This document shows positions 1 through 25,688 of a stretch of 25,688 nt of DNA, piece after piece. This DNA is from a virus. The translations under genes were made by a program, and so were the position numbers. Within the stretch, counting starts at the first letter, position 1. Every line of letters begins with the position of its first letter. Under the pieces are notes generated by a model. That model saw only the letters and a list, made by a program, of their open reading frames with translations, ran no database searches and was not told where the DNA came from. The stretch lies in IMG/VR virus record IMGVR_UViG_3300044631_003191, positions 1 to 25,688 of that record; one strand, written 5' to 3'.

Positions 1-201
1 AAACTTTTTCTTTGCTTTTTCTCCTCTAAAAACTTCCATCTCTTCGGCAATATCAAGAACCTGCCCCGCGTCTAGTTTCTCCTGTAGCTCAATCAGCCTT
101 TGAACCAGCCGCCCCAGCGCAAGCTCTTCGTCCGCCTCCAGGAGCGGATACCTGCCCACCTCATTGAGGTAGGCCTTGAGACTCGGGTCGCTCTGCTTCA
201 C
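1..201 (-). CDS. Phage sigma-70-family factor, N-terminal part (runs off left edge)
   Basis: The frame is open from a GTG at 201 to the window edge (67 codons), with an in-frame TAG a few codons upstream of the GTG. The protein reads DPSLKAYLNEVGRYPLL followed by EADEELALGRLV, the signature of sigma-70 region 1.2 (D..YL.EIGR.PLLT.EEE). It then reaches RGEKAKKKF, which matches the residues just before region 2.1 (normally followed by NLRLVV). There is no region 1.1, as in cyanobacterial group 2 sigma factors. It should bind host core RNA polymerase and redirect it to phage promoters. The start is inferred: there is no good Shine-Dalgarno, and the preceding small ORF overlaps it by 41 nt. The rest (regions 2-4) lies outside the window, so completeness cannot be judged. 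Confidence 0.8.
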   Translation of the reverse strand, partial: MKQSDPSLKAYLNEVGRYPLLEADEELALGRLVQRLIELQEKLDAGQVLDIAEEMEVFRGEKAKKKF

Positions 202-8383: not shown

Positions 8384-8671
8384 ATGCACACAAGAGGAAG
8401 CACCAATCTGAATCGAATCCTTCGTGTTACCGCCCACCTGCTTTACGAGAAGGGGCAGGACGTAAGCGAGGTGCATGGATTGATGCAGGGTTTTGTTGAC
8501 AGGTCCATGCTGCAGAAATGGTACGAGGCCTACTGCTCGCATAACGGACTGCCAAACGACGTGAACAGAAGCAAAAACAAGTACCGCCTTCCCATGCCGC
8601 CCATCAGCTGGGACGACATCACGGTGGAGGCCCTTGAGGAGCGAACACAGTCTCACGTCGATTGGCTCTGA
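8384..8671 (+). CDS. Hypothetical protein, plus strand
   Basis: A 95-residue protein without a recognised domain. The N-terminal half is helical and mildly hydrophobic (ILRVTAHLLYEKGQDVSEVH). The C-terminal half is Pro- and acid-rich (LPMPPISWDDITVEALEE). ATG preceded by GGGCAAGAGAT, a weak Shine-Dalgarno. It is first of three consecutive plus-strand genes divergent from the ERF operon, separated from the second by 3 nt. Confidence 0.6.
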   Translation: MHTRGSTNLNRILRVTAHLLYEKGQDVSEVHGLMQGFVDRSMLQKWYEAYCSHNGLPNDVNRSKNKYRLPMPPISWDDITVEALEERTQSHVDWL

Positions 8672-8674
8672 GCC

Positions 8675-8941
8675 ATGCCCCCGGCTATGGTGAGGAATGC
8701 CGACCCGCTAGCCCCAGTCATGGCATCAGCCCTCGCTCTTGAAAGCTACAGCAACCAGGGCGAAGAAAAGGAAAAGAAAGTAAGCAATACGATTCCCCCA
8801 ACCATCAAAGAACTCTTCAGGGATCTTGCTGAGATCAGAAGGGTTGCACTCGTTGAGTCGCCCCAAATCCTTCCTCTGATCGCTCCCTCCTTGATCGAGG
8901 CCGAAATTCACATCAGGCAGCTCTGGGCTGCACAAATGTAA
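8675..8941 (+). CDS. Hypothetical protein, plus strand
   Basis: An 88-residue protein, not recognised. The C-terminal part (IPPTIKELFRDLAEIRRVAL, then LPLIAPSLIEAEIHIRQL) is predicted helical and is the most protein-like section. The true start could be the ATG at 8687 or 8720 instead of 8675. It is the middle gene of the three plus-strand genes, 5 nt before the next start. Confidence 0.5.
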   Translation: MPPAMVRNADPLAPVMASALALESYSNQGEEKEKKVSNTIPPTIKELFRDLAEIRRVALVESPQILPLIAPSLIEAEIHIRQLWAAQM

Positions 8942-8946
8942 CTATC

Positions 8947-9210
8947 ATGGCTGGTCAGAGCAGGACATCTCGCTACTACTCTGAGAATCCAGAGGCTAGG
9001 CGCAAGAGGAATGCGTATCAGCGCAAGTACAACAAAAAGCCTTCTGTCAAGAAGGCTTCCGAGGAAAGGTGGAGCGAAAGGAAGAAGCGGGGGATCGCTG
9101 GCAAGGGCGGGAAAGATCTCAGCCATACCAAGGATGGGCGCATGGTGCTTGAAAATCCCCGGACTAACAGAGCGAGAAATGGGAGTGGGGGCAAACCCAA
9201 AAAGAAGTAG
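8947..9210 (+). CDS. Small very basic phage protein, HNH-like degenerate motif
   Basis: An 87-residue, strongly Lys/Arg-rich protein. The N-terminus ENPEARRKRNAYQRKYNKKP, the centre GIAGKGGKDLSHTKDG and the tail NRARNGSGGKPKKK match a common phage family of unknown function. The D-x-S-H-T...N-R pattern recalls a degenerate HNH site (D-x-D-H...N-R). The charge suggests nucleic-acid binding. ATG at 8947, last of three plus-strand genes. A weak inverted repeat GAGTCT/AGACTC (9215-9242, loop 16) follows the stop. Confidence 0.65.
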   Translation: MAGQSRTSRYYSENPEARRKRNAYQRKYNKKPSVKKASEERWSERKKRGIAGKGGKDLSHTKDGRMVLENPRTNRARNGSGGKPKKK

Positions 9211-12822: not shown

Positions 12823-14244
12823 CTACCACTGGCGAGACTCAAACATTGCATAGCACTCAGCAGCAAAGTTGATATTACATGTTCCCGTCGCCCCCTTTCT
12901 ATTTTTGGCAATGGCGTACTCATAAATCATCTGATCCTGTGTTTTATCGTAGTAGTACGGCCAGTAATTAAAGACAACCATGTCAGCGTCCTCTTCGATC
13001 TTGCCCGACTCCCTGAGGTCCGAGAGCATGGGGCGCTTATCTGTGCGACTTTCGACCCCCCTGTTTAGCTGACAAACAAGCAGAATATCAACACCAGTAC
13101 GTGTTGCTGCTATTTTGAACTTTCTCGTTGCCGCCCCAACCGCTAAAGCTCTGTTTTCGGCTTTTGTGGTATCAGAGTCCATGTCCATCAGCGTCAGATA
13201 GTCGATTACGACCAAGGCCAGATCTGGATGCTTTCTTTTTTCGGACTTGATTTTGCTAACAACCTGAGAGGCAGTCGTTTCAAAAGTGTTAGTGAATATG
13301 AGGTTTTGAGCTATCGGTTCAACTTCCGTATCAAGAATTCGCTGTTCTTGTTTCTCGTCCTTGGCCTGCCTGATGACATGCCCGTAGGTCAAAGGGCTCC
13401 CCCCTTCCTCCAGACACCTGAGATAGTCCATGCAGGACAACATCCTTTGACACACCTCGCTATCTGGCATTTCCAGTGTGTAATACAAAACCTTGTAGCT
13501 CTTGATTGCAACGTCAAGTGCAAGATTCATCGCCCAGGTCGATTTACCACTGCCGGGGCGCCCCGCAACAACAATCAGCCGCCCCCCTTTGCCCATGTCG
13601 GGGTGATTCAGTCCGCCCCCAAGTGAGGCATTGAGCCCAGTGAAGCGAGTTCTGATCACTCGATTATTGATTTTCGGCCCCAGAAACATCTCTTTGGCCG
13701 CAATAAGAGGATGAACCTCTTTCTTGTAAACTTCCGCCCCCTCAATCAAATCAACTGCTTGCAGCAGGTAAGAGGTTGCAACCTTTGATTCTTTGATGTT
13801 GCAGCTCTTGCTGACAATATCAGCTGAGTTCTGAATATAGTCCTTGACTCTTGAGCGAGAATGATGAAAGTACCAGATAGGCATTATTTTTTCCGCCCAC
13901 ACATCTAGGTCTTTCTCTATGGGATAAGAGGCGATTTGCTCAATGTAGTCTTCGGCAGCTCTTATCTCACAACCGGAAACATCTCTCAGGCGAGCGGCGA
14001 GCGTAATATCGTTTGTTGGCGACTGATGAAAGGTCCCATATTCCTCTTCGAGGCAGTCAAACATGTATCTGTTGAATGGGTCCGAGAATAGCTCTCGCCC
14101 CTTTAGCATCTCCATGAACTTATCCGCCCACTCCTGCTCTCCAAAAGCAAAACAGAAGTGATTGTAGGCGGCAGCAAGAAAGTGCTTTTCAATTTCACGG
14201 GAATCTTGCTGTGATTCAAATTCTTCGAGGTTGATAATGCTCAT
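12823..14244 (-). CDS. dnaB: DnaB-family replicative helicase
   Basis: A 473-residue protein from the ATG at 14244; a TTG two codons upstream is possible. The N-terminal helical domain (about 1-190) precedes a RecA-like domain with Walker A AGRPGSGKST (about 227-236), YYTLEMPDSEV (motif 1a), Walker B LVVIDYLTLM, LLVCQLNRGVESR and the DNA-loop/arginine-finger region SDLRESGKIEEDADMVVF. All canonical DnaB motifs are present and the length is usual (about 470). It unwinds DNA at the fork as a hexamer. It starts 2 nt after the initiator-like gene and abuts the zinc-finger gene, forming the replication cluster. The N-terminal domain is diverged, as is usual in phage helicases. Confidence 0.95.
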   Translation of the reverse strand: MSIINLEEFESQQDSREIEKHFLAAAYNHFCFAFGEQEWADKFMEMLKGRELFSDPFNRYMFDCLEEEYGTFHQSPTNDITLAARLRDVSGCEIRAAEDYIEQIASYPIEKDLDVWAEKIMPIWYFHHSRSRVKDYIQNSADIVSKSCNIKESKVATSYLLQAVDLIEGAEVYKKEVHPLIAAKEMFLGPKINNRVIRTRFTGLNASLGGGLNHPDMGKGGRLIVVAGRPGSGKSTWAMNLALDVAIKSYKVLYYTLEMPDSEVCQRMLSCMDYLRCLEEGGSPLTYGHVIRQAKDEKQEQRILDTEVEPIAQNLIFTNTFETTASQVVSKIKSEKRKHPDLALVVIDYLTLMDMDSDTTKAENRALAVGAATRKFKIAATRTGVDILLVCQLNRGVESRTDKRPMLSDLRESGKIEEDADMVVFNYWPYYYDKTQDQMIYEYAIAKNRKGATGTCNINFAAECYAMFESRQW

Positions 14245-14246
14245 TT

Positions 14247-14993
14247 TCAAAAGCCTGCAATGTCCTCTTCAAAAGTGCTAACTATTTGCTGAGTGGAGGG
14301 CCTGGTGTTTTGCTCCCAGTGAGGTTTCTTCTCTCTGCCAAATTTGTCCCAATTCTGATAGGTGATTGAGTCCCACTTTTTCTCGCCCGACTTCGATTTT
14401 TCAATAGCGGAGTCAAGCTGCTTCCTCACTGCTTCGATGCCGCCCCCTGGGTCCTCAAGTATCCGAACCAAGGAATCAAGCAAGCTGTAAAAAGATCTTT
14501 TTGTCTTTACACCCCCTTTGTGATTGTTGAAAAAATCGCAAATGCTTGAAGCAACCGTCGAGAGCTGTGGGGGAATTGTGACACCCTCACTCCCCGAGAG
14601 AGTTGCAATAAACTTCCTACTTTTTGCTTTGATGGGCTCCGCTGAGCGCGTGGGGCGAGGCAGTTGATTAGACGAGGGGCGAAGATTATTGGAGACTTCA
14701 TGTGGCAGTGCCCCCTCCACGCTCAAGAGATAGACACTCTTGGCCCTCTCTTCGGAGTACGCCCTTCTGACGTAACCATTTAACATCAGCCAATACAAAG
14801 TGTCTCTTAATTCAGTGGGGGGAAGACCTGACAACTCAACAAGTTCATCACCAGAGATTACCGTAGACCTCTGATTGTTTGCTTTGTTCATCAATATCAA
14901 GAACACCCAGATATAATTTCTGTTGTGCTGAAGAAGATTTGCGGGGGCGACAAGAAATCTGTCAGATACAACGGGTACTGTTTTGTTACTCAT
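14247..14993 (-). CDS. Winged-helix replication initiator (O-like)
   Basis: A 248-residue protein from the ATG at 14993. The N-terminal part (NYIWVFLILMNKANNQRSTV, GDELVELSGLPPTELRDTLY, LNGYVRRAYSE, about 25-95) has the layout of the winged helix-turn-helix found in phage O proteins and DnaD/DnaA-N-like initiators. A Pro/Ser linker follows, then a C-terminal helical domain (about 150-225). The position immediately before DnaB fits an origin-binding helicase loader. No origin iterons were recognised inside the gene. The start overlaps the preceding stop by 8 nt. Confidence 0.6.
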   Translation of the reverse strand: MSNKTVPVVSDRFLVAPANLLQHNRNYIWVFLILMNKANNQRSTVISGDELVELSGLPPTELRDTLYWLMLNGYVRRAYSEERAKSVYLLSVEGALPHEVSNNLRPSSNQLPRPTRSAEPIKAKSRKFIATLSGSEGVTIPPQLSTVASSICDFFNNHKGGVKTKRSFYSLLDSLVRILEDPGGGIEAVRKQLDSAIEKSKSGEKKWDSITYQNWDKFGREKKPHWEQNTRPSTQQIVSTFEEDIAGF

Positions 14994-15213
14994 TTTCGCC
15001 CCCACGCTCTTGAATTTCGTTTTCAAGCTCAACTATCAGATCACGCCCAAGCACTGCAAGCTCAAGTTGCTGTTTGTGAATATGGTTTACTCTACTGCCT
15101 TGGTCAGAAGCTTTGATTTTCCTGACCGCAAACCTGCAAAGCTTGTCTGATATTTCGTCTGCTCTTCTGGCTTGGTCAACTGTCATGAGCGGATTCAGCT
15201 CACTCAAGCGCAT
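14986..15213 (-). CDS. Small helical protein
   Basis: A 75-residue protein from the ATG at 15213 (overlap of 14 nt with the upstream gene). Other starts are an ATG at 15297 (103 residues, 98-nt overlap) and an ATG at 15186. It is mainly helical (VDQARRADEISDKLCRFAVR, QLELAVLGRDLIVELE), with a Glu/Gly tail. No domain is recognised. It belongs to the replication cluster. Confidence 0.5.
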   Translation of the reverse strand: MRLSELNPLMTVDQARRADEISDKLCRFAVRKIKASDQGSRVNHIHKQQLELAVLGRDLIVELENEIQERGGENE

Positions 15214-15532
15214 CGCTACCAATGTATGGAAGAAGGGGTCCGATGGATTCAAATCTTCGCTGAACAACTGACTTGATTGTTTTGTCGATCTGTTCATCAG
15301 CAAGTGAAAGAAAATTTCTAAGTTGACAGTAGCATGAAAACTCTTTGCTGTCAAGTAAATCTAACTGTCGGTAAACTTCATTCATTGCTGGCGTATCCTC
15401 TTCTAGCTGAGCTGCTTTGTAGAAAAGATTTGCACGCTCGTCATCAATGTCAGCAATTTTCTTCTTGTGGTTTTCTTTTTTTGACTTGATAGATTGATGC
15501 AGTTCAACAAGCTGTTTAAGCAAATCAGTCAT
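15200..15532 (-). CDS. Coiled-coil hypothetical protein
   Basis: A 110-residue protein from the ATG at 15532, with GAGGGGG immediately upstream. Long helices with heptad-like spacing (LHQSIKSKKENHKKKIADI, KAAQLEEDTPAMNEVYRQL) indicate a coiled coil. The family is not recognised. It overlaps the alpha-CTD-like gene by 8 nt and is likely co-translated with it. Confidence 0.6.
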   Translation of the reverse strand: MTDLLKQLVELHQSIKSKKENHKKKIADIDDERANLFYKAAQLEEDTPAMNEVYRQLDLLDSKEFSCYCQLRNFLSLADEQIDKTIKSVVQRRFESIGPLLPYIGSDALE

Positions 15533-15863
15533 CCCCCTCAAGCAGATCTGTTCTAACAGCTATACAATTAAGCTCTGTACCGCCCCTCTCGAACTCATCA
15601 AGTGCGGCTGCAATTTCAACAAGAGAGCCAAATCCTATAAGCGGAATAGTCCTAAGCTCTTTTTCACTGGCTTCAGTCAGATCTTCAATTGTTTCATAGC
15701 CCGCTCTGAGCAAGGCGTGCAAAGTCCTGGTGCAAAGATTTAACTGCTTAACAGATCGCCCATCGACAAGCTTTACAATCTCGTGAAGGGCGTATTCCGG
15801 CTCTATTTCTCCATTTACCCACTGATAAACAATAGAGCGTAGTTTAACGCGAAACTTTTTCAT
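15525..15863 (-). CDS. RNA polymerase alpha-subunit C-terminal-domain-like protein
   Basis: A 112-residue protein. Residues about 37-92 (VKQLNLCTRTLHALLRAGYE, TIEDLTEASEKELRTIP, IGFGSLVEIAAALDEF) align along their whole length with the bacterial RpoA CTD (L.L..R..N.L...GI.ti.dL...se.eL...p.fG.kSL.Ei...L). Relative to E. coli, R46 corresponds to R265, G77 to G296, S80 to S299 and E83 to E302, key DNA-contact positions. N268 is replaced by H49 and K298 by G79. No assembly (N-terminal) domain exists. The N-terminal 36 residues are a basic helix. It may contact UP elements, sigma region 4 or activators. It is first gene of the replication cluster; ATG at 15863. Confidence 0.75.
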   Translation of the reverse strand: MKKFRVKLRSIVYQWVNGEIEPEYALHEIVKLVDGRSVKQLNLCTRTLHALLRAGYETIEDLTEASEKELRTIPLIGFGSLVEIAAALDEFERGGTELNCIAVRTDLLEGDD

Positions 15864-15905
15864 GTTAAAAACAAAAGACAGTGGTGGTGGCTGGCGCGGC
15901 TCGGT

Positions 15906-15915
15906 GGCTAGGGTT
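15906..15915 (+). promoter_or_regulatory. Second GGCTAGGGTT element
   Basis: This is identical to 6216-6225 and again lies in a divergent gap (alpha-CTD-like gene leftward, Gly/Lys peptide rightward), ending 21 nt before the plus-strand ATG. A possible promoter or operator core. Confidence 0.35.
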
Positions 15916-15935
15916 GAATCAGTTGCACGAAAACA

Positions 15936-16007
15936 ATGATGAACAGCAAGGGCGGCAAAGGCAAGGGCAAAGGCAAAGACTATAAAAATGGTGGAAAGAA
16001 AAAATAG
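15936..16007 (+). CDS. Tiny Gly/Lys-rich peptide
   Basis: A 23-residue ORF (ATG ATG ... TAG) with a repeated Gly-Lys pattern (KGGKGKGKGKDYKNGGKKK). Such minute basic peptides recur in phage genomes and may bind nucleic acid, but no function is known. An in-frame TGA lies shortly upstream, so the start is fixed to one of the two ATGs. Its stop directly abuts the convergent stop at 16008, leaving no spare DNA, which supports it as a real unit. No strong Shine-Dalgarno. Confidence 0.5.
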   Translation: MMNSKGGKGKGKGKDYKNGGKKK

Positions 16008-16331: not shown

Positions 16332-16474
16332 CGAATACACTCCAGCGAGGCCAAGCCGCGCACCACAATACCTCCTGAGCTGTAACAGGACATGGACTGG
16401 CGGATAGTTAATCCAGAAACTATCAACGCGAAAGTGAAAATGATGGCAATCAGGAGTGCTTCTATTCGGTTCAT
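16328..16474 (-). CDS. Small single-pass membrane protein
   Basis: A 48-residue protein. NRIEALLIAIIFTFALIVSG gives one transmembrane helix at the N-terminus, followed by a short polar tail with two cysteines. Both ends are shared with neighbours by 4-nt ATGA overlaps. The function is unknown. Confidence 0.6.
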   Translation of the reverse strand: MNRIEALLIAIIFTFALIVSGLTIRQSMSCYSSGGIVVRGLASLECIR

Positions 16475-17379
16475 CGGTTGGCCTCCCGTCGCAGCACTGC
16501 AACGCTGAGCCAATGTGCGCTTCCGCGTGCTTCTAGCCACGCCGCCACCTCGCGGATTGCGGCGCACATTTCGCCGGAAGTGGGATCTCTGCCTGACTGC
16601 TTATAAACGGCATCGCGCATCCTCTCCATCAACCCGCCAGGCCGGGCCTCGGCGGCAGGCGCAGCCCCCTGCTGCGCTAGATGGGCCTGCCATTTTATCC
16701 CGGCATGAAACCCTGCCGAATAGAGCCGGGCCATGGCATCGCCAGACTCTTCATTTGGATCTTGGTTGTCGTTCCAGATGCGGGCTAATTCGCGGCGCGT
16801 GATCTCTGGCTCCACCAACCCACCAGGCCGTGCTTCGGCGCTGGCGGCGCGGAGTTCGTCCATTGTGGTGGCGGGCTCGGGGGCTTGCTCCGCACGGGTC
16901 TGGTGAGCGGCATAGGCGGCCTCTGGAGTGGGGAACTCCTCGAACGGACTGACGCGGCGAGAGTTACGGACCACCCAGCAGGCCTGCCCGGTTTCCTCTG
17001 CTGGTTCCATCAGAATCCTGATGCCGTCACCATCGGCATCGACATACTCCACGGGGAAAAACCCACCAGGCCGGGCCTTGGTGGTGGGGGCGGTGTGCTG
17101 CTCCGCCAGCCGGCAGTAGCTGGTGCCCTCATCGCTGCTGACGATGTGGGGGCAGGTGGTGGCGGTTTCCAGCGCCTCGATGCGACTCCCGTGATCGTTG
17201 CCAGCTTTCGCAACTGTGCCGACTAACGACAGTAGAGAGGCTTTTAATGCTTCTACATAGGCGTAAAGCTTGTTAATTTCAGCGACCACCTTTTCGGGAC
17301 TTGCAACGTCATCGCCTGGGTAGGCGCACATTGAAATTTGCTCAGGCGTGATGCTGTGTGATTGAGATTCTTGGTTCAT
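16471..17379 (-). CDS. Modular protein with ARPGG linkers
   Basis: A 302-residue, Ala/Glu-rich protein built from several segments joined by a repeated linker: KARPGGFF, AEARPGGLVE, AEARPGGLME. Between them lie a helical N-terminus, a beta-like module (EYVDADGDGIRILMEP, CWVVRNSRRVSPFEEFPTPE) that looks like a small strand-rich domain, a helical module (RRELARIWNDNQ, AGFHAGIKWQAHLAQ) and a C-terminal helical module (IREVAAWLEARG). No catalytic motif is recognised. The repeated linkers at DNA and protein level suggest assembly by module shuffling. GC content is visibly higher than in the replication cluster. Coupled on both sides by ATGA. Confidence 0.65.
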   Translation of the reverse strand: MNQESQSHSITPEQISMCAYPGDDVASPEKVVAEINKLYAYVEALKASLLSLVGTVAKAGNDHGSRIEALETATTCPHIVSSDEGTSYCRLAEQHTAPTTKARPGGFFPVEYVDADGDGIRILMEPAEETGQACWVVRNSRRVSPFEEFPTPEAAYAAHQTRAEQAPEPATTMDELRAASAEARPGGLVEPEITRRELARIWNDNQDPNEESGDAMARLYSAGFHAGIKWQAHLAQQGAAPAAEARPGGLMERMRDAVYKQSGRDPTSGEMCAAIREVAAWLEARGSAHWLSVAVLRREANR

Positions 17380-17870
17380 GAGTAGTAGTAGCGCGAATGT
17401 CTAGTGGGGTTATTGGGGCACCGGCAGGGCGTCGGGGGGAGTACCTCAACGCGCCGAATCTCTAGGGAATGTGGGCCGTCCTGTGAATACATGGCCAAAT
17501 AGTGCTGCCCTTCGCTCAGCGCCTGGCTGTATGTCGGGGCAGTGCCACCAGCTTGCTCTGCGTATTCGCTGTCGAACACTGAGAACTCAAACCTCTCACT
17601 GGCGCACCCCGGCAACCGCTCGCTCACCAGCGCGGGCTCGATGGTGGGGCGGACGTAGCGGGAGCGATCAGCAGCAATTACGGCGCGGCCAAAGGCAATC
17701 AGCAGGTCGTCTAGGGGATCTTCGTCTCCCGCGAATGGCAGGTAGACCTCTTCCACGTCTGGATGAGGCTGGAAAGCCAGGCCAACAGTGATCGCCTGCT
17801 TTATTAGCTCTTCATCCGTCAGTGCTTGGGGCTCCGGTCGAGCCAGCAGATCGGTGAATGTTTCTTCCAT
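17376..17870 (-). CDS. Modular protein, VSERLPG family
   Basis: A 164-residue protein. The N-terminal half is helical (TDEELIKQAITVGLAFQPH, LLIAFGRAVIAADRSRY). RPTIEPALVSERLPG then introduces a C-terminal strand-rich module (QHYLAMYSQDGPHSLEIRR). The RPxIEPxxVSERLPG segment recurs in the genes at 18077 and 18735 and resembles DUF551-type modules of phage proteins. The function is unknown. It starts 33 nt after the small gene at 17904 and is coupled to the next gene. Confidence 0.6.
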   Translation of the reverse strand: MEETFTDLLARPEPQALTDEELIKQAITVGLAFQPHPDVEEVYLPFAGDEDPLDDLLIAFGRAVIAADRSRYVRPTIEPALVSERLPGCASERFEFSVFDSEYAEQAGGTAPTYSQALSEGQHYLAMYSQDGPHSLEIRRVEVLPPTPCRCPNNPTRHSRYYYS

Positions 17871-17903
17871 TAGTTGAAATCTCTAGTGGGTGGGATGAAT
17901 GAG

Positions 17904-18080
17904 CTATGGGCTGAATCCTGGTGGCTTGGTGGTCAGCAAAGAGGCGGCATACTGGATGACATTTTCCCACCTCACAAACACCTTTGGCGGTGTTCCCCTG
18001 GGTGGAACTTGCTTGACAATCCATCCGTTCTCGGCTGCCTCAATCTGCACAGTGAGATACTCTCCTTTAGTGGTCTTCAT
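17904..18080 (-). CDS. Small hypothetical protein
   Basis: A 58-residue protein from the ATG at 18080 overlapping the preceding stop (ATGA). EYLTVQIEAAENGWIVKQVP and KVFVRWENVIQYAASLL form a strand-strand-helix pattern frequent in small phage proteins. The longer frame to 18203 runs over the C-terminus of the neighbour in a different frame and is rejected. Confidence 0.65.
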   Translation of the reverse strand: MKTTKGEYLTVQIEAAENGWIVKQVPPRGTPPKVFVRWENVIQYAASLLTTKPPGFSP

Positions 18081-18742
18081 TGCGACACCTCCGCGCCGGG
18101 CACTGGCAGGGCGTGGTGGGGGAGCAGCCATCCGGCGTCCACCCTTGCCGGGTTGACCATCGCCCAGCTCGCAACCCCACACAGCTCGCAACCCCACCAG
18201 CACTCCCCATCAAGGTCACACCACCCCTCGCGTTCCCATGGCCGCTCACTCACCGGCACCGGCTTAATGGTGGGGCGGCCCCAGCGGGCAATGGCGTACT
18301 CGATGGCGGGAATCAGGTCTCCATCGCAGTGCTTTTTCTTTATCAGATACCGCGCAGCCGCTCTGATCTCTGCTTCGGTGGCGATCTCCTGCACGCGGTT
18401 GTAGTTGGGTGATGGTTTACTCCCCACCGGCTCGGGCTGGGCCAGGGCGTCCAACTCGTCTATGACCACCTCGGCCATCTCTGATGCCACTTCATCAGGG
18501 TCTCCGTAATGGCCGTCAACCGTTGCGTCGTGCACGGCCATGTACCCAAAACGGATGCCAGCAGCCACCAAGCGCAACCTCTCATTGCCAGCGTCAATCA
18601 ACGGCGCCAGCGGCTCGGACTGAGCCAGGGCGGCGTGGGCGCGGTTTACAGCAGCCTGAAACCTTAGGCCATCATTGGTGTCGATTACATCGTTTTCAAC
18701 TGCCCCCAGCAAGCGCTGCAGCTCGGCGCGGTAGTCAGTCAT
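18077..18742 (-). CDS. Modular protein, VSER..LPHHALPVP family
   Basis: A 221-residue protein from the ATG at 18742. Helical modules come first (YRAELQRLLGAVE, AAVNRAHAALAQSEP, VVIDELDALAQPEPV, EIRAAARYLIKKKHC). Next is RPTIKPVPVSER and the C-terminal module WCDLDGECWWGCE...NPARVDAGWLLPHHALPVPG, Trp-rich and of the type repeatedly joined to helical modules in uncharacterised picocyanobacterial-phage proteins (from memory, unchecked). A 17-bp tandem duplication lies within the Trp-rich module. The N-terminus and leader are paralogous to the gene at 18735. Function unknown. Confidence 0.65.
   Translation of the reverse strand: MTDYRAELQRLLGAVENDVIDTNDGLRFQAAVNRAHAALAQSEPLAPLIDAGNERLRLVAAGIRFGYMAVHDATVDGHYGDPDEVASEMAEVVIDELDALAQPEPVGSKPSPNYNRVQEIATEAEIRAAARYLIKKKHCDGDLIPAIEYAIARWGRPTIKPVPVSERPWEREGWCDLDGECWWGCELCGVASWAMVNPARVDAGWLLPHHALPVPGAEVSQ
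18165..18197. repeat. 17-bp tandem duplication inside a coding region
   Basis: A 16-bp sequence (CAGCTCGCAACCCCAC) occurs at 18165-18180 and again at 18182-18197, a period of 17. Since 17 is not a multiple of three, loss or gain of one copy would change the reading frame of the 18077-18742 gene. Confidence 0.85.
18426..18449. repeat. 24-bp dispersed repeat, copy 1
   Basis: Identical over 24 bp to 18967-18990. Both encode the linker ALAQPEPV in neighbouring paralogous genes. A second pair of 19 bp links 18246-18264 with 18763-18781, encoding the PVPVS linker. Confidence 0.85.
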
Positions 18743-19142
18743 TTGGTGTCTCCAAGTGGTGGTCACTCACCGGCACCGGCTCGATGGCGGGGCGCCACCT
18801 GCTGCCGGGGTGCGACAGAATCGCCTCAGCAAGCGCTGCGGCGCCCAGGCCGTGGCTGCCATCAACCTCACGGATGATCTCAGCCAGCCTCAGGACGTGG
18901 CCGACTCTTGGGGGCAGATCATCATCCGCCAAAACTTCCGGCCCCGGCAGGCGCTCAGCGACGGGCACCGGCTCGGGCTGGGCCAGGGCGATGCTCACGT
19001 CTTGAATAGCGCTCTCAAGTGGCTGCAGCGTGAAAAAGTCAGGTTTGTAGCTGCCTTCCATAATGGCTGGGATCAAGTCGCGCAGTTCGCCTAGGGCACC
19101 AGTCAGCCGCTGGATCAGCTCTCGGGGGGTGGGATTGGTCAT
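18735..19142 (-). CDS. Modular protein, paralogue of the 18077 gene
   Basis: A 135-residue protein from the ATG at 19142. PRELIQRLTGALGELRDLIP is followed by SIALAQPEPVPVAERLPGP, the helical module HVLRLAEIIREVDGSHGLGA and the end RWRPAIEPVPVSDHHLE. It thus contains the VSER-type linker twice but stops where the 18077 protein has its Trp-rich module, so it looks like a shortened or rearranged relative. The leader before its ATG (GTGACCACC..CTT...ACCAATG) resembles the leader before 18742, supporting tandem duplication. Its stop overlaps the next start by 8 nt. Confidence 0.6.
   Translation of the reverse strand: MTNPTPRELIQRLTGALGELRDLIPAIMEGSYKPDFFTLQPLESAIQDVSIALAQPEPVPVAERLPGPEVLADDDLPPRVGHVLRLAEIIREVDGSHGLGAAALAEAILSHPGSRWRPAIEPVPVSDHHLETPND
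18967..18990. repeat. 24-bp dispersed repeat, copy 2
   Basis: This is the partner of 18426-18449. The direct repeats could recombine and swap or delete the module between them. Confidence 0.85.
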
Positions 19143-19173
19143 TGGTTTCACAGAAGAGGTGGTCACTTGTGGG

Positions 19174-19374
19174 TCAAAGGAGTAAATCGTCAACATCTTC
19201 GATAAATTGCTCTATTTTTTTGTTGACTGGGCCAAAACCCTGATCTTTTTCTTTGCCATCTGTTTGATAAATTGGCCAGTAAGTGTGGAGAACACTACGA
19301 AGCTCTCCCTTTGCTCGCTCCCAGGCCATATACCTCATTGTCTCGGCAACGCTGCGATTTGAAATGTCAAACAT
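19174..19374 (-). CDS. Small hypothetical protein
   Basis: A 66-residue protein. It is helical (VAETMRYMAWERAKGELRSV) with an acidic C-terminus (IEQFIEDVDDLLL). The ATG at 19374 is preceded by GAGGAG with 5-nt spacing, one of the better Shine-Dalgarno sites here. The leader sequence ACCCACAAGTGA is repeated before the next gene (19142). No domain recognised. Confidence 0.6.
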   Translation of the reverse strand: MFDISNRSVAETMRYMAWERAKGELRSVLHTYWPIYQTDGKEKDQGFGPVNKKIEQFIEDVDDLLL

Positions 19375-19766: not shown

Positions 19767-20267
19767 TTACTCATGACGGCTGAACTCTCCGTGTAACGAC
19801 TCTCTGAGCTTGCGGACAGCGGCAGCACATTCGTGCTTGCAATCAAAAAGACGTGTCCTGTAGAGCTGGCCTTTGTGCCAGACCTGCCCAGTCCATCTGC
19901 CGGTATTTCTTATCTGGCTGACACCCTTGACTCCTGAGGTGCTGTCCTTCCTGATGCGCATGTTACGCATGTTGATCCCAGGATCCGCTTCTCGCAGATT
20001 TTCAATCCGGTTGTCCAGTCGATCACCGTTGATGTGGTCGAGCAATGCCACAGGGCTGTTTCCATGCATAACCCATATCAAACGATGCGCAAGATATTTC
20101 TTGCGGTTGATCCCGACAAGCCAATAGCCTTCAGTATTAACAGCGCCAGCCCTGGAGCCCTTTTGTGCTTTGGGACCCTTATTGACGCGCCAATACAGAA
20201 AACCATCAGCATAGTCAAAGAGTTCACGAAGAAGCTCTATTGACGGCAGTTCGGCTGGGGCTGGCAT
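19767..20267 (-). CDS. HNH homing endonuclease with AP2-like DNA-binding domain
   Basis: A 166-residue protein from the ATG at 20267, which overlaps the previous stop (TGATG). The N-terminal part GFLYWRVNKGPKAQKGSRAG is typical of HNH_3 proteins. The HNH core is YLAHRLIWVMHG...LLDHINGDRLDNRIENLR (about 58-92; H, D-H and N). SGVKGVSQIRNTGRWTGQVW with the following strands and helix (about 110-155) is an AP2-type DNA-binding domain. This architecture is usual for free-standing phage homing endonucleases and intron-encoded relatives. It probably spreads itself by cutting phages that lack it. No intron boundary was recognised nearby. Confidence 0.9.
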   Translation of the reverse strand: MPAPAELPSIELLRELFDYADGFLYWRVNKGPKAQKGSRAGAVNTEGYWLVGINRKKYLAHRLIWVMHGNSPVALLDHINGDRLDNRIENLREADPGINMRNMRIRKDSTSGVKGVSQIRNTGRWTGQVWHKGQLYRTRLFDCKHECAAAVRKLRESLHGEFSRHE

Positions 20268-20476
20268 CACTCGTAGTCCCCCTGTCTAATAGGCAGCGTC
20301 AAATAACGCAAAATAGGAATAGATCCAGCCCAGGCAGAATTAAAGTCCTTCAACACCTTGTCGGTAATCCAATAATTTCCGCCCCAGCCATCACAACCAG
20401 TTCCGCCGGCATTTCCCCAGAACCACCGCCCAAGGAAGCCGCCTTCACTGGTTATGCGGAAGAAGTGATTGCCCAT
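20267..20476 (-). CDS. Small Gly/Trp-rich hypothetical protein
   Basis: A 69-residue protein. The central FLGRWFWGNAGGTGCDGWGG is unusually rich in Gly and Trp, and strands flank it. No family recognised. It is the first gene behind the promoter at 20501-20529 and shares its stop with the HNH start. CAGGGG lies upstream of the ATG. Confidence 0.6.
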   Translation of the reverse strand: MGNHFFRITSEGGFLGRWFWGNAGGTGCDGWGGNYWITDKVLKDFNSAWAGSIPILRYLTLPIRQGDYE

Positions 20477-24003: not shown

Positions 24004-25688
24004 TCAGAACTTGATTGTAAACGGTCGCCCATCCGCAATCACGTTCACAGAGTCAGAGCGAGTGGAAGAGAAGCCAACACCAGAGAGTTGATTGTTGCTC
24101 GGCTGGCACTTGGTTTTGTTGCCAAGCACCTCGAACACTCTGCGATGCTGCTCAAGTGAACTCATTAGAAATTCATTGAAAATCCCCCTTGCAGGTTCTG
24201 GATTGAGGCACTTGTCGAGAATGAAGAAGTAGTGCCGGTTGCCCGTCTTGCTTGAATTCTCCCAGTGATTAGGGGAAAGCATCAGGACATTGACCTTCGT
24301 TGGCGTATTAGTTTTCACGCCCCACTTCTCCCGTGCAATGGCTGCACTTCCACTAAGTTTACCATGAGTCTTGATTTCTGCAAGCTCCCCGCCCTCAACG
24401 ACAAGTGTCAGACAATGAACCCCAGGATCAGGATGCCCCTCACCAGGCATGGGCGAGGCGTCGCAAGAGAATTCATGGATGCTGCCAGCAAATTCAACCT
24501 GAAGCTGAAAACCTGGATCAGCGGTTTCACGGCGACAGAAGTTATTGACGTAAATCTTGTATTCGCCATCGGTAATCTGATTCCAGCTCAAATTCTCGAC
24601 AGGTTCCCGTGAACGACCAAGGCCAGCGTTCATGTCAACATCAAGAATACCTCTTGTAGCGGCGTAGTAAATATGAGTTCCACGAGGATCAATGCAGTGA
24701 ATGTCAAGATCGTCGTAATTGAACCACGCAAGAGAGCAGCGAAGCAGTGCATTGATGTTACCACCAGCAATTTTCACCCGCTCCTTGATCGAGTCAGCAA
24801 CATCACCGTCATAGGACCAACCAAAAGCGTTGTCCCACTTGAACAGTGAGGGCGAGTCAGGAATGGCTGGGGCCGTAATACTTACAAAGTTATTCAGGTG
24901 ACGGTTTTCAAGAACCAGCTCGATTCGCTTGCTACGCATTGCAATGAACTGCTCAATCCCAATCTCCTCACCCTTGCGTGTAGAAGCGGTGGGGCGCACC
25001 TCTTCCATCAAGAGATCGGTCAGGCCGCCCTTTGCCTTGCCCCGCACATCGTTGTCGATGAAGATAATGTCATTGACGCTGATGTCTTCGATCGAGGCGA
25101 AGCGACGGCTGATTGAATCCTCCAGATCAAGGCGCTTGAGTGTTGCAACAGCATCTTCAATCATGCGGGGCGTGATCAAAGCTTTGGGGCGCTTGTAGTT
25201 TGCCGGGGCAACCTTGCTTTCAAAGCTCTTAATAGCTTTCTCTTGTTCCGCCCCCTCGGAAAGATCAACAGCAAGTGTGCCAATCACCGTGTTCTTGAAG
25301 AGAGCAGCGGGATTGCCAACATGCTCCCAAGCATAAAGCTCTTTGTTTTCCGCTCTTTCGTAGCCTCGCTTCAGAGAGCGAAACTCAGCAACAAAGTTGC
25401 GATGTTCTTCGCCCCGATAGATTTGGTTGTCATCGATCAGAGTGATAATTTCATCCAGATCAGAAGAGTTAATAATTTCAAGCCCCCGCTTGAATACATG
25501 GTGAACAGAATTGACCTTGCCAATATCCTCGCCCGGCGAACGAGAGATGCAGCGACTTGGGGTATTGCCGTAGAAATGATACCAAGTAATTGCAGCATGA
25601 GAATCAAAGTTTTTCTCGTGCCCAAAACTTACTTCTTTGGTGCGAAAAACAGAAAGAATGGGGCTATTTCGCACAACGCGATCCATTT
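24004..25688 (-). CDS. Large phage protein with DUF2135/YfaP-like domain (5' end probably off-window)
   Basis: At least 560 residues; an ATG lies at 25686, but the first residues continue a fold-like sequence, so the true start is probably to the right. Residues about 150-250 (PANYKRPKALITPRMIEDAV, RRFASIEDISVNDIIFIDND) match a large phage protein family of unknown function. Residues about 318-405 (LRCSLAWFNYDDLDIHCIDP, THIYYAATRG, LDVDMNAGLG, GEYKIYVNNF, FQLQVEF) have the pattern of DUF2135/YfaP beta-sandwich domains. The C-terminal part (VLMLSPNHWE, HYFFILDKCLNPEPARGIFN) completes the family. No catalytic motif is recognised. It is first visible gene of the right-hand minus-strand chain. 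Confidence 0.7.
   Translation of the reverse strand, partial: MDRVVRNSPILSVFRTKEVSFGHEKNFDSHAAITWYHFYGNTPSRCISRSPGEDIGKVNSVHHVFKRGLEIINSSDLDEIITLIDDNQIYRGEEHRNFVAEFRSLKRGYERAENKELYAWEHVGNPAALFKNTVIGTLAVDLSEGAEQEKAIKSFESKVAPANYKRPKALITPRMIEDAVATLKRLDLEDSISRRFASIEDISVNDIIFIDNDVRGKAKGGLTDLLMEEVRPTASTRKGEEIGIEQFIAMRSKRIELVLENRHLNNFVSITAPAIPDSPSLFKWDNAFGWSYDGDVADSIKERVKIAGGNINALLRCSLAWFNYDDLDIHCIDPRGTHIYYAATRGILDVDMNAGLGRSREPVENLSWNQITDGEYKIYVNNFCRRETADPGFQLQVEFAGSIHEFSCDASPMPGEGHPDPGVHCLTLVVEGGELAEIKTHGKLSGSAAIAREKWGVKTNTPTKVNVLMLSPNHWENSSKTGNRHYFFILDKCLNPEPARGIFNEFLMSSLEQHRRVFEVLGNKTKCQPSNNQLSGVGFSSTRSDSVNVIADGRPFTIKF

Follow-up and report, generated by a model that had tools for sequence, protein, structure and literature searches.

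The window, by which we mean the whole stretch of DNA analysed, is a 25,688-base virus record from IMG/VR. On its minus strand an ORF that starts with an ATG at 15863 and ends with a stop codon at 15525-15527 encodes a protein of 112 aa, here called P0001 (Table 1). The first-pass annotation had placed this ORF correctly, with no strand given, and had read it as a stand-alone mimic of the C-terminal domain of the RNA polymerase α subunit (α-CTD) that heads a replication cluster. The gene is indeed the first of a minus-strand replication run. Downstream of it lie two small genes of unknown function, a possible replication initiator, a DnaB helicase and further small genes, and the run continues through Erf, an exonuclease, an SSB-like gene, a deoxynucleotide-kinase-like gene and a dCTP deaminase to a sigma factor, the last gene; members of the run without a family match were named by reading of the sequence. 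The start of the gene adjoining that of P0001 overlaps the P0001 stop by 8 bases, and the two are likely to be translationally coupled. Three consecutive plus-strand ORFs (8384-9210), the third of which encodes a very basic protein, lie within the minus-strand run in a region that is conserved in sister contigs.

Table 1. Features of the α-CTD locus and of the associated gene run (positions in the window).
Feature	Position	Strand	Basis
Phage sigma-70-family factor, first 67 aa, cut by the window end	1..201	minus	Sigma70_r1_2, E=2.7e-10
DnaB-like helicase	12823..14250	minus	Pfam DnaB_C, E=1.5e-55
Possible replication initiator	14247-15032		No family match
Function-unknown gene next to the α-CTD gene	15200..15532	minus	Sequence; conserved in all sisters
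Stand-alone α-CTD gene (P0001)	15525..15863	minus	ORF, Pfam, structure model, hhalign
α-CTD proper, residues 36-94	15582..15758	minus	Pfam PF03118 and predicted helices
N-terminal helical hairpin, residues 1-35, without known family	15759..15863	minus	Model helices 2-16 and 22-34
Gap from the α-CTD gene to a short divergent ORF (plus strand)	15864..15935	.	Sequence

Five intact homologues of P0001, with 90-98% identity, were found on other IMG/VR contigs. The dN/dS ratio between variants (Nei-Gojobori) is 0.06-0.17, indicating purifying selection, and we therefore regard the ORF as a real, selected gene. Its phage neighbours and the five syntenic phage contigs exclude a fragment of host rpoA. 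Upstream, the gap that separates the gene from a divergent ORF is likely to hold a candidate promoter of the run; a promoter scan upstream of the α-CTD gene, with a list of intergenic gaps, gave none above chance. The divergent ORF (15936-16007, plus strand) encodes a Gly/Lys-rich product of 23 aa and has longer forms in the sisters that carry the α-CTD gene, while a locus that lacks this gene (L007) has a long Gly/Arg/Ser-type repeat in its place. The region upstream of the α-CTD gene varies from contig to contig, and the gene lies exactly at the border of this variable region. A variable cassette of related minus-strand genes with a common EPVPVSERLPGP-like motif occupies 16471-19196, its copies differing among sister contigs, and a gene at 19767-20270 (minus), judged by eye to encode an HNH-type homing endonuclease, is absent from the sister contigs compared. 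Towards the end of the window, the product of 24004-25686 (minus; 560 aa) belongs to phrog_1735, a family of unknown function, and shares about 47% identity with proteins from DSS3_VP1, Zuri and further unrelated phages.

The identity of the domain was assessed with sequence profiles. P0001 matches Pfam RNA_pol_A_CTD (PF03118) over residues 36-90 with E=3.9e-11 and 42.9 bits (cut-off 23.8), and its sister homologues score 43.5-46.2 bits. The generic helix-hairpin-helix (HhH) models HHH_5 (23.1 bits) and HHH_2 (14.0 bits) both fall under their cut-off of 27. Comparison with an α-CTD alignment by hhalign gave a probability of 95.6% (E=1.2e-8, 55 columns). In a phmmer search of the PDB every match at E<0.01 was an RNA polymerase α subunit, the best being 1doq (E=1.6e-5). 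The top NCBIfam models are likewise RpoA, with alignments confined to the C-terminal part of the models and scores far under their full-length cut-offs.

The predicted structure points in the same direction. An AlphaFold2 model built from 22 rows, of which 18 are viral α-CTDs so that the model is biased to this fold, has a pLDDT of about 90 across most of residues 11-92 and contains the four α-CTD helices (45-53, 59-64, 67-71 and 78-92) together with an N-terminal hairpin, also predicted with high confidence. A run with four near-identical rows was weak (53.6) and gave a similar order of helices. The top PDB matches of the 22-row model in Foldseek are α subunits at 0.8-1.8 Å, among them 7vpd_S (0.8 Å, 54 columns), 1z3e_B (1.2 Å, 57 columns) and Synechococcus 9dvt_A (1.8 Å, 59 columns). 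The first Rad51 match stands at rank 43, and an HhH protein of NAD-ligase or Rad51 type, the alternative raised at the outset, is not upheld. Taken together, sequence profiles and model indicate that residues 36-94 of P0001 are a free-standing RNA polymerase α-CTD.

As the first-pass annotation had stated, the N-terminal assembly and dimerisation domain of RpoA is absent from P0001. The idea that residues 14-33 are a remnant of the last α-NTD dimerisation helix is unsupported (1.4 bits, equalled by 4 of 2000 shuffles), and a dozen or so unrelated ORFs from these phages reach the same α-NTD-helix score. Recent capture from a host is also unsupported, since the best pairwise match is a Thermus α-CTD and P0001 sits on a long branch of unsure placement; a pattern scan of genome contigs yielded no close cellular relative.

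The surface of the domain departs considerably from that of host α. Equivalents of R265, G296, S299 and E302 (E. coli numbering) had been reported as retained, and correspond to R46, G77, S80 and E83. The reported replacement of N268 by His and of K298 by Gly is also borne out, and to these we add C269 to Ala, K271 to Leu and N294 to Leu. At positions 258/259 P0001 has KQ where picocyanobacterial RpoA has EE; residue 261 is Asn in both. The states of the key residues are identical in all variants compared. The full 265 determinant (R265, N268, N294, G296, K298, S299 and E302) is incomplete in P0001, and the canonical DNA-contact face is thus about half lost.

These features bear on the earlier proposal that a free α-CTD competes with host α for UP elements. 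Four contact residues are kept, which agrees with the proposal, but it is weakened by three features: five residues of the DNA face differ, the domain has an acidic pI of about 5, and the dimerising domain through which α brings two CTDs to one polymerase is missing. Such competition by P0001 is possible but not favoured. A wider version, in which the free domain, as a decoy, sits on UP elements or on sigma region 4 and reduces the use of host promoters, would gain from the same four residues and from the leading position of the gene, which may make P0001 an early product. It is set back by the loss of the N268, C269, N294 and K298 equivalents, by the acidity of a domain that is monomeric as judged by sequence, and by the fact that an isolated α-CTD is a weak DNA binder, and we consider it improbable. 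A replication-side function, in which the α-CTD-like fold would serve as a clamp on DNA or as the partner of a helicase, also looks unlikely. DNA binding by HhH folds is often independent of sequence, the gene lies in the neighbourhood of DnaB and the possible initiator, and gp51 of Mycobacterium phage Marley1013 adjoins a helicase; however, PF03118 clearly outscores the HhH families on P0001, and basic DNA-contact residues are absent.

We then considered the sigma factor at the other end of the run. The window and the sister contigs G001, G003, G004 and G005 have the same-strand run from α-CTD to sigma, and the sigma gene is full length in sister contigs, where regions 1.2, 2 and 3 score above the Pfam cut-off and region 4 below it. 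Among NCBIfam models Sig70-cyanoRpoD fits it best (E=5e-63, under that model's own cut-off), and cyanophage sigmas are among its best named phage relatives; on these grounds the host is probably a cyanobacterium. At the position equivalent to R596 the phage sigma has Asn, a comparison to be read with the fact that Arg is not universal there among host sigmas. With the change of EE to KQ at 258/259, residues on both sides of the canonical α-CTD/sigma contact thus depart from the usual state.

Loss of the α-CTD gene can be seen in G006 (IMGVR_UViG_3300042366_001387), whose DnaB is 99% identical to that of the window and in which the α-CTD gene is reduced to its last 31 codons. The sigma of G006 has 74% identity to those of the α-CTD-positive sisters, compared with 95-100% among these sisters; for region 4 the values are 66% and 98%. 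In comparisons with G006, no other sense gene of 90 aa or more in the shared early block is as poorly conserved as sigma. The correlation between α-CTD loss and sigma divergence comes from one event (n=1), the gene adjoining sigma has been exchanged in G006 as well, and another gene also drops to 74% between two α-CTD-positive sisters. More distant cousins (DnaB 81% identical) have other cassettes in place of the α-CTD gene and a related sigma wherever the contig extends that far, indicating that the sigma can work without the α-CTD. Replacement in the cousins, loss in G006 and the location at the variable border would fit a dispensable accessory cassette with a minor or host-specific role. 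Given the constant position of the gene and its low dN/dS in the sisters, we regard this as very improbable.

In order to place P0001 among viral proteins, IMG/VR was scanned with an α-CTD alignment, which gave 32 loci. All 25 distinct viral α-CTD proteins matched PF03118 and none (0/25) an α-NTD family; 12 of the 25 have Sigma70_r4 in the same chain, the rest including others with repressor-type HTH domains. The scan patterns contained [VI]R[SA]YNCLK, so that host-like α-CTDs were sampled and the conservation of 264-271 is partly by construction; an alignment of eight diverse α-CTDs had no conserved stretch. Sigma-70 region 4 and α-CTD are joined in one chain in L070, L071, L077, L086, L092, L093 and others, and from their sequences such fusions may constitute a broad class of phage transcription factors. 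A bacterial protein other than RpoA (L046; G033, family of Synechococcus sp. AG-673-A03) carries two tandem α-CTDs preceded by a long, repetitive Ala/Glu/Arg-rich stretch.

P0001 resembles RpoA in sequence family, helix pattern, fold and the four retained residues; it differs in the absent assembly domain, the changed N268, C269, K271, N294 and K298, the non-acidic 258/259 and the extra N-terminal hairpin. Among named phages, PF03118 scores are 78 bits for Bacillus phage Goe8 (c00050), 50.5 for Microbacterium phage Mazun gp26 and 28.2 for Marley1013 gp51, and BFVD contains entries named as α-CTD proteins, for example from Mycobacterium phage Mithril. Like P0001, these proteins have the PF03118 domain without an α-NTD. 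Their extra regions, in contrast, are unrelated to that of P0001, a tblastn search with P0001 against named phages gave no match, and Goe8 c00050, unlike P0001, is close to host α-CTD with canonical residues. A 429-aa protein (P0002) encoded by P1-like phage-plasmids (L008:6999-8288) ends in an α-CTD with 37% identity to that of P0001 and shares the motif TRxLxALxxAGYET. It differs in its long coiled-coil-like N-terminal part, in its enterobacterial host and in that no sigma was noted nearby; twelve IMG/VR loci (L104-L115) have a similar CTD. The cyanophage group-2 sigmas of S-CBS1, S-CBS3, KBS-S-2A and MaAM05 are 34-40% identical to the present sigma, whose region 4 is under the Pfam threshold, and these phages gave no match to P0001. 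In the viral sigma-region-4/α-CTD fusions (L070, L077, L086, L092, L093 and others) a virus-supplied α-CTD likewise accompanies a sigma part. These are single chains with host-like α-CTDs, whereas here there are two genes and a full sigma with regions 1.2-3.

The reading we prefer, with a probability of roughly 0.42, is that P0001 is a trans-acting α-CTD and works on host RNA polymerase as a partner of the phage sigma. It is favoured because a sigma lies in the same run, because sigma4-αCTD fusions recur among viruses and because both sides of the canonical α-CTD/sigma contact are changed. The identity of the domain, the selection on its gene and the divergence of the G006 sigma also count for it; counted against it are the single event behind the loss/sigma link, the cousin sigmas without an α-CTD, the variability of Arg 596 in hosts and the sampling of the fusions with one pattern. 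The free α-CTD, as the product of the gene that opens the run (the order of expression being presumed), would bind the phage sigma. It would sit by sigma region 4 and the upstream promoter DNA, beside or in place of the host α-CTD, and could help host RNA polymerase with the phage sigma to start at phage promoters, its putative targets. The suggestion in the first-pass annotation that the domain might contact sigma or tether another phage protein to promoters is indirectly supported by the sigma that the phage itself encodes in the run and by the viral fusions.

A role as activator trap or adaptor is rather unlikely. P0001 might trap host activators (of CRP or RpaA type) or, through its N-terminal hairpin, serve as an adaptor that tethers a phage protein. 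Activators usually dock on α-CTD, the RpaA/α-CTD structure 9dvt is among the fold matches, and the confident prediction of the hairpin would suit an adaptor; the surface of P0001, on the other hand, has low identity to that of host α-CTD.

A more far-reaching form of the sigma-partner reading, which we hold to be doubtful, is that a matched pair of phage sigma and free α-CTD re-equips host RNA polymerase with a mutual contact rewritten relative to that of the host, as a split form of the sigma4-αCTD fusions.

Phage factors are known to modify, cleave or contact the host α-CTD, and phage α-CTD proteins as a kind are already known from automatic database annotation. In the open-access literature we found no functional study of a free phage α-CTD. 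What is new here is the combination of a stand-alone α-CTD whose DNA face is degenerate with a phage sigma encoded in the same run. If the sigma-partner reading is true, a phage that supplies an α-CTD beside its own sigma would represent a different route to the takeover of initiation, and it would become testable whether an α-CTD works when unjoined to polymerase. A class of viral proteins that at present has an automatic domain name only would also acquire a meaning.
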